Virus record (IMG/VR): IMGVR_UViG_3300032299_000267
Coordinates: 1-61,459 of that record
Reading direction: 5' to 3' (one strand)
DNA: 61,459 bases
Origin: a virus
Of this stretch, positions 44,034-56,652 are shown piece by piece; positions within the stretch are counted from its first letter, which is position 1, and each line of letters opens with the position of its first letter. Both the position numbers and the translations under genes were made by a program. The notes beneath the pieces were generated by a model that had not been told where the DNA came from, made no database searches, and saw only the letters and a program-made list of their open reading frames with translations.

Positions 44034-44041
44034 ACACCCTC

Positions 44042-44076
44042 CCTAGATGTAGACCGATAGTAAACCTACATTTAGG
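44042..44076 (-). promoter_or_regulatory. 11-bp-arm operator over leftward promoter
   Basis: The left arm CCTAGATGTAG (44042-44052) and right arm CTACATTTAGG (44066-44076) form an inverted repeat with one mismatch and a 13-base spacer. The spacer contains the -10 box of the leftward promoter. This geometry suggests a dimeric repressor that blocks RNA polymerase. Confidence 0.7.
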
Positions 44077-44085
44077 GCAAGTCAA
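44057..44085 (-). promoter_or_regulatory. Leftward promoter for recombination-glycan operon
   Basis: On the minus strand: TTGACT (44085-44080), 17 bases, TACTAT (44062-44057). This is close to sigma-70 consensus with ideal spacing. Transcription would start near 44050, about 17 bases before the ATG at 44033, and read the leftward operon. No internal terminator was seen down to 33 kb. Confidence 0.78.
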
Positions 44086-44124
44086 TAGTTATCACAAATA
44101 TTTTTTAACTGTTGTTAACAAATA

Positions 44125-44150
44125 GGTATCTGTAAATTCTTACAGATACC
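44125..44150. promoter_or_regulatory. 26-bp palindrome, copy 1 (putative operator)
   Basis: GGTATCTGTAA-ATTC-TTACAGATACC, an exact 11-bp inverted repeat with a 4-base centre, located between the divergent operons. A second copy is at 57556-57581. The two share the flank ...CCCGTTTGATAAC on one side when aligned in opposite orientation. It is not followed by a T tract, so it is unlikely to be a terminator. Confidence 0.8.
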
Positions 44151-44162
44151 CGTTTGATAACA

Positions 44163-44191
44163 TTGCAAATAATAATTGGTAGTGTTATTGT
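44163..44191 (+). promoter_or_regulatory. Rightward promoter for small RNA
   Basis: TTGCAA (44163-44168), 17 bases, then TATTGT (44186-44191) preceded by an extended -10 TGT. A start near 44197 would give an RNA ending at the terminator at 44287-44311. The palindrome operator lies just upstream, at 44125-44150. Confidence 0.6.
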
Positions 44192-44195
44192 TACT

Positions 44196-44311
44196 GCGGG
44201 GAAAGCCTGCCACACTCTCCTGTGTTGTGATCTCCTTCCGGTAGGTGAGTACCCCTTGGATGTGGGTCTTAAGGGAAGACCCTTTGCCCCGCTTCGGCGG
44301 GGTTTTTTTTT
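44196..44311 (+). ncRNA. Candidate structured small RNA / leader
   Basis: A 116-base interval without an open frame, bounded by a promoter and a strong terminator. The 5' end GCGGGGAAAG (44196-44205) can pair with CTTTGCCCCGC (44282-44292), and the latter overlaps the left arm of the terminator, so the two structures exclude each other. A perfect 7-bp hairpin GGGTCTT-AAGGG-AAGACCC lies at 44264-44282. TGTGATCTCCT (44226-44236) is complementary to the ribosome-binding leaders of three minus-strand genes and in 9-10 bases to others. I do not recognise an RNA family. Confidence 0.5.
44287..44311 (+). terminator. UUCG-loop terminator
   Basis: CCCCGC-TTCG-GCGGGG (44287-44302) followed by nine T. 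A UUCG tetraloop with six G-C pairs is among the most stable terminators. It ends the candidate RNA above. Confidence 0.9.
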
Positions 44312-44333
44312 ACCTTTTGAAATCAAGAGGTAA

Positions 44334-46035: not shown

Positions 46036-46562
46036 TATCAACGAAGTCGGCGTAGGCCAGCGTAGCATCGACATACGCGCCGGATAATCGTAACCGGCAC
46101 TTGCATAAATTCTTTTCCTGATTTATTATTTGCCTGTCACTGTGTCAGGCGGAGACAATCAACCCAAGCCCTTAAGCTTTGGTTCTTAGCCCTTAAGTGG
46201 GAACGTGCCTGACACACGGAGAACCAAGCCTTAAGGGTTTTTTCATTTGCAGTGACCGTACCTTCCACGATAGTAGAGAGCCTGCATGGGCTGCCGGAGA
46301 GAATACACTGGTCGAGGTTTCACCTGCCTGCGTACCACACTGCCTGTTAGCGAGGGACAGTACAAGAGAAGAGAGACATGGGTGATAGACAACTCTCTTA
46401 TCGAGCTAATCGCTACCTTCTGGGTTTGCCAGTATTCAGCAGTAAGAATATGGGCAAGGATGATTCCCCATCTCGTGTGCTGCGCATTTGATGGTGGGCT
46501 ATCACCCTTGGGGAACCTAAACACGGAGGATGCAATAGATGTGAGTTGGCAGGAACTAACTG
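46036..46562. other. Non-coding interval, 527 bases
   Basis: No convincing gene. A 104-residue plus frame (46286-46600), a 37-residue frame starting ATG 46379 after AGAGAG, and a 108-residue minus frame (46243-46569) look like shadows: odd composition, no clear RBS for the long ones, and the long plus frame runs through the promoter at 46563. The left part holds inverted repeats (46079-46083 with 46094-46098; 46141-46150 with 46207-46216) and a terminator-like element ending at 46243. Confidence 0.6.
46141..46243 (+). ncRNA. Candidate structured RNA with terminator
   Basis: A perfect 10-bp stem TGTGTCAGGC / GCCTGACACA (46141-46150 with 46207-46216) encloses 56 bases holding two CCCTTAAG elements (near 46168 and 46190). 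Either can pair with CTTAAGGG at 46230-46237, which is followed by six T. So alternative folds are possible, with one ending transcription. I see no match to a known RNA family. Confidence 0.4.
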
Positions 46563-46591: not shown

Positions 46592-46614
46592 TCGCCCTAG
46601 ATATAGGAGGTCAC

Positions 46615-46785
46615 ATGAAAGAAGGAGAGTGGATTAAGGATCATCTGCGGGAGTTTGCAGATCGTTTGGAGCAGTCGGTGATAGAGCGGGAAAGAGAAAG
46701 AGCGGCAATCATTTGCCACTACTACAGAGATTGGCAGGATAACCCTGCTGAAGCCATAGCTACGGCTATATTAAAAGGAGAGTGA
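46615..46785 (+). CDS. Small helical protein with RERERAAIIC motif
   Basis: A 56-residue protein with RBS ATAGGAGG eight bases upstream. It contains VIERERERAAIICHYYRDW and ends EAIATAILKGE, the same motif as the minus-strand protein at 40291-40485. These short motif-bearing proteins are common in phages; function unknown. It is the first gene after a strong promoter. Confidence 0.68.
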   Translation: MKEGEWIKDHLREFADRLEQSVIERERERAAIICHYYRDWQDNPAEAIATAILKGE

Positions 46786-46787
46786 AG

Positions 46788-47453
46788 ATGGATATGAAAG
46801 TCAAAGAAACATCAGTAGTTATTTCTGCACCCAATTTCCAGGCAGTCGATGTTCTGCTACAGGGTACAGCGCCGCTAGTCGTTGAGCGGTTTAGCAAGAA
46901 GGCAGAACTAATGGCTAAGATGGCAGAGGGTAAGTCTGCCGGTAGCAAGAAGGTTCGTGATGCCCGCGACTATGACAAAGAAGCAGAGGCCGCACGTTAC
47001 CGCTCAGAAGAAAACTGGGAAGGCATGAACGCTGCTGCTTTCCGCGCCGGTATGATCAGCGCATGTCGCTTAGTAGGTTTTAAGATGACGCTCGCCAAGC
47101 TATCAACATTTGTTGTGGCTGACGGCTTTGATCTCCAAGATGGCATACCGCTTATCCGTATCTATGGCACTAGCGAAACCTATACAGCTCACACACGCAA
47201 CGCTACGGGCGTGGTTGATGTCCGTAGCCGTCCCATGTACCGTGAGTGGGCGGCACGTTTGCGTATACGTTTTGATTCGGATCAGTTCACAGCACAAGAT
47301 GTCTACAACTTAGTCAGCCGCGTTGGGTTGCAGGTAGGTATAGGTGCAGGACGTCCTGACTCTAAGGCTTCCGCTGGCTGTGGTTTTGGTACGTTTGAAA
47401 TTGTGCCCAACGACAAAGAGAAAGAAGTCGTAAAGAAATTCGGCATTAAGTAA
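46788..47453 (+). CDS. Unknown phage protein with C-terminal Gly-rich loop
   Basis: A 221-residue protein; ATG 46788 with GGAG eight bases upstream. Residues 30-60 are basic helix (VVERFSKKAELMAKMAEGKS). Residues 150-185 hold strands (YREWAARLRIRFDSDQFTAQ), and residues 193-215 a Gly-rich loop GLQVGIGAGRPDSKASAGCG then FGTFEI. The position between recombination and replication genes suggests DNA metabolism. The Gly-rich loop superficially recalls RAMP-type folds, but I have no other support. Function unrecognised. Confidence 0.62.
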   Translation: MDMKVKETSVVISAPNFQAVDVLLQGTAPLVVERFSKKAELMAKMAEGKSAGSKKVRDARDYDKEAEAARYRSEENWEGMNAAAFRAGMISACRLVGFKMTLAKLSTFVVADGFDLQDGIPLIRIYGTSETYTAHTRNATGVVDVRSRPMYREWAARLRIRFDSDQFTAQDVYNLVSRVGLQVGIGAGRPDSKASAGCGFGTFEIVPNDKEKEVVKKFGIK

Positions 47454-47461
47454 TTAAGGCA

Positions 47462-47965
47462 GGCCCGTCGTGGTGAGTTGCGATCCGGCCCGGTTGGGCA
47501 AGGCAGGCTAGGTTGGGCGCGGCATGGTAGTGCGAGGTGGGGCGAGGTTTGGTTTGGCAAAGCAGGTCAGGCGAGGTTTGTTGGGGTATGTTGCGTTGCT
47601 GCGCGGCTTGGTTCGTTAAGGCAGGCAAGTTCCGGCTGGGCGGGGCACGGTGCGGTTCGTTTCGGCAGGTAGGGTGGGGAGAGGCGAGTTCCGGTAAGGT
47701 AGGTTAGGTGTGGCGGGGCAGGCACGGTATGGCTGGGCGGCGTGTGTTCTGGCATGGTTTGGTATGGCAGGCATGGCACAGTGGGGAGAGTCCAGGCGGG
47801 GCAGCGTGCGGTAAGGTTCGATACGGCAGGTAAGGCGAGGCGAGTTCGGGTAAAGCGAGGTTTGGAAAGGCAGGCGGGGTTAGGCGGCGCAAGGTGGAGT
47901 TAGGAGTGGTGCGGTGAGGCAGGTGAGGCGGGGCGGGGTTTGGTCGGGCACGGTAAGACATGGCA
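47462..47965 (+). repeat. 500-bp pentanucleotide-periodic G-rich tract
   Basis: About 100 consecutive 5-bp units with GG in a fixed phase (units such as GGCAT, GGTTT, GGTAT, GGCGA), with the phase slipping a few times. The plus strand is very G-rich. Individual units are diverged, so it is not an exact repeat. No open frame with protein character on either strand; the minus-strand frames are Pro/Ser/His low-complexity shadows. It lies in the leader of the gene at 47988, whose RBS comes just after. Confidence 0.85.
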
Positions 47966-47987
47966 GGTAAACTTTAAGGAGATCAAC

Positions 47988-54382: not shown

Positions 54383-54393
54383 CGTCTGATCTC

Positions 54394-54579
54394 CTATAAA
54401 GATTGTGCCCACAACATTTGTATGACTAGCATTTCTGTCATGTTTTCTACTTCTTCTTGTATCCATTCGTCTGAATATCCCTCGAATGGTTCCCATGCGG
54501 TAAGGTCGTCAACGTCTGCGTAAAAGTGCATAGTGGCTATTGCATGAGCGCGCTGTTTAATTTCATCTAATGTTTTCAT
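54394..54579 (-). CDS. Small acidic protein with conserved leader
   Basis: A 61-residue protein starting at ATG 54579 after AGGAGATCAGACG. The sequence KTLDEIKQRAHAIATMHF is helical, followed by an acidic part (WEPFEGYSDEWIQEEVENM). Similar in layout to other small early proteins. Function unknown. Confidence 0.68.
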   Translation of the reverse strand: MKTLDEIKQRAHAIATMHFYADVDDLTAWEPFEGYSDEWIQEEVENMTEMLVIQMLWAQSL

Positions 54580-54590
54580 CGTCTGATCTC

Positions 54591-54761
54591 CTATGCGTTG
54601 ACTACTAACTGCATCCATTTACCCTCTACTGGTAAATCGAAATCCTCTTTTTCATCGAATGTAAAAACGTCAAAATCATCTCCATCTGTCCATCCCCATG
54701 CGTTTGTCCAAAGTAATTCTGGTTTATTTACGTTTTCAATTACATAAGCGTCTAATATCAT
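54591..54761 (-). CDS. Small acidic protein (56 residues) with conserved leader
   Basis: Not in frames above a 60-residue limit. ATG 54761 has AGGAGATCAGACG directly upstream, and the frame stops in the next leader (TAG in TAGGAG). It is acidic with three Trp (ELLWTNAWGWTDGDDFDVFT). The leader and packing make it convincing; function unknown. Confidence 0.7.
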   Translation of the reverse strand: MILDAYVIENVNKPELLWTNAWGWTDGDDFDVFTFDEKEDFDLPVEGKWMQLVVNA

Positions 54762-54772
54762 CGTCTGATCTC

Positions 54773-54955
54773 CTATATGTTGGCTAAGTGTTTTGCTTTA
54801 ACGACTGCCTGCGCGAGCGTCTGAAAGCGCATTAACAGGCATACGCGCTCGTCTGCATCTGTATCAAACAGCGCGACATTAAAACCTTTGTCCGTCTGAT
54901 AAATGCGTGATTCGATACCGTAATTCTCGTTTGGATAAGCTGCTATTTGTTGCAT
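54773..54955 (-). CDS. Small protein with conserved leader
   Basis: A 60-residue protein, ATG 54955 after AGGAGATCAGACG. Strands (GIESRIYQTDKGFNVALFDT) then a helix (RFQTLAQAVVKAKHLANI), as in a small alpha/beta fold. Function unknown. Confidence 0.68.
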   Translation of the reverse strand: MQQIAAYPNENYGIESRIYQTDKGFNVALFDTDADERVCLLMRFQTLAQAVVKAKHLANI

Positions 54956-54967
54956 CGTCTGATCTCC

Positions 54968-55135
54968 TTATTGTTGGCACTCTGCACAAACCGCTCGCAT
55001 TTCGGGGTTCTCTCGTACCCATCTCAGCGCGGCGGCTTTCGTATCAAATCTCTGCCAGATGAAATAACCGCCTTGTCCATCTGCGACCATCTCAAAGCAT
55101 TTAATCCAACCGTACTCATTAAATTTAAGTTTCAT
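54968..55135 (-). CDS. Small protein (55 residues) with conserved leader and CAEC end
   Basis: Also missed by a length limit. ATG 55135 follows AGGAGATCAGACG. It reads MKLKFNEYGWIKCFEMVADG, then a strand/helix, and ends VCAECQQ. A single CxxC near the end and one Cys at 13 could bind metal only with partners. First of this sub-series from the promoter region at 55.2 kb. Confidence 0.7.
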   Translation of the reverse strand: MKLKFNEYGWIKCFEMVADGQGGYFIWQRFDTKAAALRWVRENPEMRAVCAECQQ

Positions 55136-55160
55136 CGTCTGATCTCCTGTATGTATTAGT

Positions 55161-55733: not shown

Positions 55734-56066
55734 TTAAAATTGAACGTAAACAATAGTGCCTGAATTTGTAGTGCCAATAACTGTCGTTTCATCCTGTAAA
55801 TAATTCATAACAGTTTCGACAGTAGTAACTTCGTCAATACACTCTGATATGTCGATGCTGTAATTTGCAGCTATATCCTCGCAATAATTTTCAGATAATT
55901 CGCAGCAAAGGGCGATCACGTCGAGTTCATACTCCTCACCTAAATCGCGCTCTTGATCTTCCAAGTAATCGAATATCAGTTCGAGCGCTTCGTAACTGAA
56001 CTGATCTTCCCTGCCAGCGCGCACAAAAGCATCGCGGAAGCCATAAATGGATATAGTTGTTTTCAT
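55734..56066 (-). CDS. Conserved-type acidic phage protein with leader
   Basis: A 110-residue acidic protein (KTTISIYGFRDAFVRAGRED and YEALELIFDYLEDQERDLGE, ELDVIALCCELSENY). I know nearly the same layout from proteins found in many phages and plasmids, unnamed. The ATG at 56066 has AGGAGATCACATC upstream. Confidence 0.7.
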   Translation of the reverse strand: MKTTISIYGFRDAFVRAGREDQFSYEALELIFDYLEDQERDLGEEYELDVIALCCELSENYCEDIAANYSIDISECIDEVTTVETVMNYLQDETTVIGTTNSGTIVYVQF

Positions 56067-56081
56067 GATGTGATCTCCTAA

Positions 56082-56237: not shown

Positions 56238-56402
56238 TCAATAACTAAATTCATCTTCTAGGCTAGTGATTAACCCGTCGAAGTCCTCAGAGCTACCGAG
56301 TATTGATGCAAGCGCGTAAACAGTCTCGCGGTCGTATTCCTCGCAAAGGCTCTCAAGGTATGCGCGGCGGTTCTCAAATCCGTTTTCTTTGTAAATGTTC
56401 AT
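56238..56402 (-). CDS. Small conserved-type phage protein (54 residues)
   Basis: MNIYKENGFENRRAYLESLC and ASILGSSEDFDGLITSLEDE are sequence marks I know from a widespread small phage protein with no named function. Start ATG 56402 after AGGAGATCACAGC. Missed by a 60-residue cut-off. Confidence 0.75.
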   Translation of the reverse strand: MNIYKENGFENRRAYLESLCEEYDRETVYALASILGSSEDFDGLITSLEDEFSY

Positions 56403-56414
56403 GCTGTGATCTCC

Positions 56415-56603
56415 TTAGATAATGAAAGCGGGATGGTTAGCTATGCCAAAGATAGGCGCGTATTCCAGTAAAGCGGCGCGGCTTTTCTTAGTCATTGCAG
56501 CGCGAATAAGGCTAGATAAGGCTTGAGCTATGTTTTGCTCGTATCCGCCTAGCTTGTGCATGATGCAAAGATTCTGTATTTCTCGCAGTTCTGATTTATT
56601 CAT
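56415..56603 (-). CDS. Small helical phage protein
   Basis: A 62-residue helical protein (KSELREIQNLCIMHKLGGYE and NIAQALSSLIRAAMTKKSRA). ATG 56603 follows AGGAGATCACATC. It is first after the promoter at 56653-56680. Function unknown; similar small proteins are common in phages. Confidence 0.7.
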   Translation of the reverse strand: MNKSELREIQNLCIMHKLGGYEQNIAQALSSLIRAAMTKKSRAALLEYAPIFGIANHPAFII

Positions 56604-56652
56604 GATGTGATCTCCTGAGTTAATGCACTAATGAATGAAGTGCATGAGTGAT

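Follow-up and report, generated by a model that had tools for sequence, protein, structure and literature searches.

The window analyzed here spans an entire virus record, 61,459 bases long, from a freshwater-type phage. At 44196-44311 it holds an interval that no gene-like open reading frame (ORF) covers on the plus strand, as an earlier first-pass annotation had reported; a 73-aa minus-strand TTG ORF (44105-44326) overlaps the interval as a listed ORF only. The elements of this small RNA (sRNA) locus are:

44163-44191, plus strand: promoter-like TTGCAA-17-TATTGT of the sRNA, a weak consensus match (8/12 by eye)
44196-44311, plus strand: sRNA gene; covariance model R1 scores 112 bits at 44193-44312, predicted transcript ~115-118 nt
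44198-44201, plus strand: P1 5' strand GGGG, pairing with CCCC at 44252-44255, the two inner pairs invariant
44205-44211, plus strand: P2 5' strand GCCTGCC, pairing with GGTAGGT at 44240-44246
44213-44220, plus strand: anti-Shine-Dalgarno segment 1, CACTCTCC, complement of GGAGAGTG leaders
44226-44236, plus strand: anti-Shine-Dalgarno segment 2, TGTGATCTCCT, the segment of the first-pass annotation
44247-44251, plus strand: GAGTA facing GAAA (44201-44204), a bulged-G-like internal loop
44264-44282, plus strand: second hairpin GGGTCTTAAGGGAAGACCC, covarying in relatives
44286-44303, plus strand: intrinsic terminator with UUCG loop and T run, 6-pair helix, 96% paired in relatives

Of the two transcription signals claimed at first pass, the UUCG terminator was recovered in full, while the promoter held in part: its consensus is weak and it scores below threshold in a promoter scan of the window, but the hexamers and their 17-nt spacer recur in relatives (L102, L106, L107, and L111). 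Covariation, the terminator, and these recurring promoter-like hexamers together argue for an independent transcription unit, from which we infer a predicted transcript. An inverted repeat, GTATCTGTAAattcTTACAGATAC, lies at 44124-44151 between the divergent nuclease and sRNA promoters; its position is kept, and its arms change together, in L106, L107, and L111.

Relatives were gathered by scanning viral contigs with the two neighboring genes of the sRNA, and they carry this intergenic RNA next to the nuclease gene. Homologues were found in 13 other phage contigs, giving 14 full copies including the window, and one further copy (L252) is cut by the contig end. In relatives the RNA keeps its place upstream of the nuclease gene, and the neighbor on its other side differs. 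In an alignment of nine sequences, two-sided changes affect 12 of 24 base pairs, compared to 5.4 ± 1.6 in shuffles (0/500 reach the observed value) and 0-2 when the structure is slid along the alignment. These changes fall within the terminator, the second hairpin, and P2; the last comprises 9 pairs in the alignment (97% paired), and 5 of them vary on both sides. Outside the seed set, the covariance model matches L219/L254 (126 bits), L104 (123 bits), L251 (102 bits), L105 (78 bits), and L265 (52 bits). Within the alignment, the GGGAAA columns are invariant and AGTA is near-invariant, and the GAAA/GAGTA internal loop may resemble a bulged-G module. Since the fold of the window copy alone is unremarkable (z -1.7), the case for an RNA rests on this comparison, from which we consider 44196-44311 almost certain to be a genuine structured RNA.

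The ~30-nt apical loop on the covarying stem carries two anti-Shine-Dalgarno segments, which are conserved while the stems vary. Segment 1, (T)CACTCTCC, had been overlooked at first pass; CACTCTCC is unaltered in 12 of the 14 members, the exceptions being G004 and L251. The core of segment 2, GTGATCTCC, is kept as GTGRTCTCC or GTGAATCTCC in all members except G004. In computed ensembles both UCUCC segments are mostly unpaired (mean 0.49-1.0). Inside the loop, most of the 14 members can form a 3-5 bp stem of UCAC/GUGA or its variants, with stem-preserving changes to ACC/GGU or UUAC/GUGA and a shorter or shifted form in the window and G001, so that UCUCC is presented twice, once in the loop of this stem and once 3' of it. 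Conservation of GTGA and TCAC can be explained by this internal stem alone. The scaffold GGGAAAGCC...GGTGAGTACC also recurs, with additional closing pairs and without anti-Shine-Dalgarno loops, in unrelated-looking phage contigs (L220, L226, L227, L229, L232, L233, L234, L237, and L244), some matches to this pattern being expected by chance.

Searches against known families returned little. An Rfam cmscan of the sRNA at the gathering threshold and at a permissive E ≤ 5 yielded sub-threshold, terminator-driven matches only: GcvB (RF00022; 26.9 bits against a gathering score of 42) owed its score to the upstream inverted repeat and the terminator, and anti-hemB (RF02837; 24.7 bits against 49.5) mainly to the terminator half. 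BLASTn of the sRNA against phages matched the terminator hairpin alone, and the wider sRNA region gave no match. A genome scan produced a single match, in Streptosporangium, judged to be chance, and half of the matches in a pattern scan of viral contigs were chance matches in coding sequence. The annotated phage relatives Cy-LDV1 and Pag-Yong1 are without the sRNA. A 14-bit candidate in G008/L109 has the same locus and terminator and a different 5' domain. At the syntenic place, L110 (7265-7404, minus strand) and L109 (116-256, minus strand) hold a different structured RNA, with a GGGTGC...GCACCC stem, a CTCTC or AATCTCC loop, and the terminator type and downstream sequence of the sRNA. As far as sequence can tell, the sRNA is a conserved, structured, free-standing, phage-specific RNA gene, previously uncatalogued.

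The first-pass annotation had proposed that segment 2 pairs with a set of leaders in the window, and all of the matches it listed were found again, including a 10-nt match at the leader of 47988 (AAGGAGATCA) and those below.

54385-55148, minus strand: five AGGAGATCAGA leaders of a small-gene array, 9-nt match; weaker, secondary
56069-56079, minus strand: AGGAGATCACA leader preceding the ATG at 56066, exact 11-nt complement
56405-56415, minus strand: AGGAGATCACA leader preceding the ATG at 56402, exact 11-nt complement, predicted pairing -25.9 kcal/mol, rank 2
56606-56616, minus strand: AGGAGATCACA leader preceding the ATG at 56603, exact 11-nt complement

Allowing ≤2 mismatches, the segment 2 motif has 19 matches compared to 12.2 ± 3.4 for shuffled versions, of which 3/100 reach 19. 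In the leaders of the window, AGGAG is most often followed by the 4-mer ATCA (7/22), so the match exceeds the bare anti-Shine-Dalgarno core.

We then compared leader classes between phages with and without the sRNA. Among 369 carrier starts, the 5-mers following GGAG include ATCAG (46), ATCAC (10), AAGAA (10), and AGTGA (9), with GGAGATCAC and GGAGAGTGA the second and about the fourth commonest Shine-Dalgarno extensions. ATCAC (GGAGATCAC, the complement of segment 2) occurs at 10/369 carrier starts vs 3/613 starts of 35 distant non-carriers (Fisher p = 0.004), and AGTGA at 9/369 vs 1/613 (Fisher p = 0.0009), with the caveats that all genomes are related, so that leader counts and p-values are not independent, and that the leader and operon tests were chosen after several comparisons, which makes their p-values descriptive. 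Two nearer relatives without a recognizable copy have ATCAG at 17/103 starts, ATCAC at 1, and AGTGA at 0. With ATCAC and AGTGA scarce and ATCAG frequent where the RNA is missing, it is the exact complements that track the RNA, not the ATCAG array. Of 256 tetramers, only the TCAC/GTGA pair has both members at 9 or more (next 2), and because TCAC and GTGA pair with one another, the two start sets that the RNA might control, GGAGATCAC and GGAGAGTGA, carry mutually complementary extensions. The loop thus combines conserved, unpaired segments with enriched complementary leader classes, as seeds would. The first-pass idea of pairing to a shared leader gains from the overrepresentation of GGAGATCAC in carriers and loses in that GTGA, one portion of the extension, is also accounted for by internal pairing with TCAC.

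When all 96 starts were scanned for pairing energy, a check proposed at first pass, the 56402 leader came second to an operon absent from the earlier list of targets:

46605-46631, plus strand: best predicted pairing site (RNAduplex -33.6 kcal/mol, rank 1 of 96 starts)
46615-46785, plus strand: predicted target, a 56-aa gene (MKEGEWIKDHLREF...) with no PHROG or Pfam match
46777-46785, plus strand: GGAGAGTGA leader of the second operon gene, second predicted site
46788-47453, plus strand: second operon gene, phrog_4652

This operon comes with a promoter-like TTGACA-17-TATTGT of its own (by eye). In the RNAduplex prediction the 56-aa gene pairs with both segments, through AGGAGGTCACA from Shine-Dalgarno to start codon and AGGAGAGTG at codons 3-6. 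Such predictions are energy-only and host-blind; across genomes they place the 56-aa gene on top in most cases, and its family first of 35 (combined z -6.9, in a ranking where two unrelated sequences chained into the family dilute it). Among homologues of the second gene, GGAGAGTGA precedes 6/6 sampled carriers (and the window) vs 0/33 non-carriers. GGAGAGTGA doubles in many phages as the Gly-Glu-stop end of the gene before it; at the operon it persists in G003, G007, G009, G011, and L265, where it is non-coding or stands before the 56-aa gene, and G001, G004, and G005 are without an exact copy there. Every contig that holds the 56-aa gene and enough sequence ahead of it has the sRNA 0.7-2.7 kb upstream, on the same strand (the L255 contig begins just past the sRNA).

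Tests of specificity were less clear. When loops were permuted among targets, the 56-aa gene showed no sign of co-adaptation (p = 0.27-0.70), in a setting where seeds are mostly invariant and power is low; the loop-target swap test was not significant, and a search for targets specific to each phage's own loop found no single orthologous target across genomes. The L251 loop pairs poorly with its own 56-aa gene. Any double anti-Shine-Dalgarno loop favors this gene, since its codons 3-5 supply another GGAG; with the Shine-Dalgarno cores held fixed, its pairing reaches p 0.001-0.15 per genome. From these predictions, we see an evenly balanced case for the operon at 46615-47453 being the main target. 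Between its promoter and the Shine-Dalgarno sequence of the 46615 gene lies a CCTAGATATAGG palindrome (46596-46607), and a related CCTAGATGTAG...CTACATTTAGG stands at the nuclease promoter (44040-44085), with similar copies in relatives; these sequences are a candidate operator of early genes.

We propose that P1 and P2, with the GAAA/GAGUA internal loop, would hold out the apical loop, where the weak UCAC/GUGA stem would present the two UCUCC anti-Shine-Dalgarno segments. UCAC-UCUCC would then pair in trans with GGAGAGUGA starts and GUGA-UCUCC with GGAGAUCAC starts, and pairing would occlude the ribosome-binding site and repress translation of phage mRNAs, the main target probably being the early operon at 46615-47453. 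Conserved segments and enriched leader classes make it likely that the sRNA acts by antisense pairing to phage starts. The fuller account, of a trans-acting antisense RNA that represses translation chiefly of this operon and secondarily of a few small early genes with AGGAGATCACA leaders, is the one we favor on balance, with somewhat more reserve. More tentatively, the strands of the internal stem might double as two alternative target-recognition extensions, defining a new phage sRNA family, a refinement we hold to be possible and rather doubtful.

A different emphasis, that of the first-pass annotation, is that the sRNA chiefly switches the many small genes with AGGAGATCA leaders at 54-56.6 kb. 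The three exact 11-nt and five 9-nt matches suit this regulon, as do ATCA being the commonest Shine-Dalgarno extension in several carriers and the diverged loop of G004 still pairing with its own array leaders at about -24 kcal/mol. However, AGGAGATCAG arrays are equally common in G008 and G012, which have no recognizable sRNA copy (17/103 vs 46/369 in carriers), and leaders kept in relatives where the segment is absent were named by the annotation itself as counting against its proposal. The array leader is identical over 16 nt among copies and matches the RNA across 9 only, departing from it at the tenth base; the loops of G010 and G011 fit the arrays poorly (-13 to -15 kcal/mol), and arrays pair with the loop of their own phage no better than with the loops of other phages. 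The five-copy AGGAGATCAGACGATG array is a clade feature also present without the RNA, so this part of the regulon is weak, and the array as chief target is unlikely. We judge equally unlikely a general anti-Shine-Dalgarno RNA, whose two UCUCC loops would bind many GGAGA starts, perhaps of host mRNAs, with flanks fixed by the internal stem only. The pairing of UCAC with GUGA in most members, its stem-keeping changes, and the failure to find target co-variation are what such an RNA would predict, yet both stem-strand extensions are specifically enriched in the starts of carrier phages, and the operon site tracks the RNA. Far less probable is a cis-acting leader or attenuator at the 5' end of the phosphoesterase mRNA (44379), with the terminator regulating read-through: that gene does lie 67 nt downstream on the same strand, and G001 is arranged alike, but most relatives have other non-coding cassettes after the terminator with the RNA still conserved, and phosphoesterase homologues beyond the closest relative are without it. 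Finally, a functionless RNA that has a gene-start copy, decayed or inverted, on its minus strand, along the lines of the alternative raised at first pass, is scarcely credible as a full explanation given the covarying stems, recurring promoter hexamers, and loop segments conserved across diverged phages, even if the loop's reverse complement resembles the 46615 gene from Shine-Dalgarno to codon 6 and an inverted copy may be its origin.

Read as a trans-acting antisense RNA, the sRNA has several parallels. Bacterial sRNAs with CU-rich anti-Shine-Dalgarno loops include Listeria LhrC, the Rhodobacter CCUCCUCCC-motif RNAs, and staphylococcal RNAIII. It shares with these the unpaired C/U-rich loops complementary to the Shine-Dalgarno sequences of several mRNAs, and differs in its scaffold, its phage origin, and flanks that extend the match to phage-specific leaders. 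C4 RNA of phages P1 and P7 (RF01695) is ~100 nt long and thought to act on a ribosome-binding region via short complementary segments. The sRNA is likewise phage-encoded and structured, with short segments complementary to ribosome-binding regions; unlike C4, it comes with a promoter-like pair and a terminator of its own, carries both UCUCC segments in a single apical loop, and has as predicted target a separate operon ~2.3 kb downstream. The RF01695 covariance model does not match it at gathering or E ≤ 5, and the C4 trait of processing from the leader of the regulated transcript does not apply, the sRNA and its target operon each having a promoter-like pair. We conclude with moderate confidence that it works like C4 and other antisense RNAs; it is not a C4 member. 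Among phage RNAs, c4 is named as an antisense RNA in PMC12197685 (its ref 46) and listed in PMC2864571. Lambda OOP, a phage antisense RNA acting on early-gene mRNA (PMC12197685), as predicted for the sRNA, is encoded opposite its target cII, whereas the sRNA is encoded elsewhere and has short imperfect matches. VpdS and PreS are trans-acting phage sRNAs (PMC12197685); the sRNA would resemble them as a phage-encoded base-pairing RNA, and differs in sequence and in having predicted targets in the phage, not the host. Its sequence suggests a new RNA family within a known kind, the phage-encoded trans-acting antisense sRNAs.

The surroundings hold further non-coding elements. A second conserved RNA at 46131-46245 (plus strand) forms a pseudoknot before a T run, a 10-bp helix TGTGTCAGGC/GCCTGACACA crossing a 16-bp helix CCCTTAAG..TTGGTTCT/AGAACCAA..CTTAAGGG. 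Across 13 sequences, paired cells amount to 100% and two-sided changes affect 9 pairs (0/500 shuffles); an Rfam search gave no match, and it also occurs in L217 and L271, both without the first sRNA. Tandem non-coding cassettes follow the sRNA terminator in L103, L104, L106, L107, L108, L111, L113, and L219, bordered by CAAGACGCATGA..ATTG and CAGT..TCAGCCGTGTTGG...CCAACAACC, with covarying inner arms (TGACCATTG/CAGTGGTCA and TGAGGATTG/CAGTCCTCA); one cassette piece (GTCGGCGTAGGCCAGCG...CCGGCAC) lies at about 46045-46105 of the window. At 47460-47970 the window has ~500 nt of GGCAGG/GGCGGGG-rich quasi-repeat without a convincing gene.

Known examples of phage RNAs that act on early translation in the same phage are few, with almost none from uncultivated freshwater phages. 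If the dual-extension reading is true, the RNA would throttle the leading early operon and small host-takeover genes together, its stem opening upon target binding. The presence of a second, unrelated conserved RNA nearby suggests a reliance on RNA-based control of early genes in these phages. With a structure, two seeds, candidate targets, and natural variants, the sRNA family is defined well enough for direct reporter testing.
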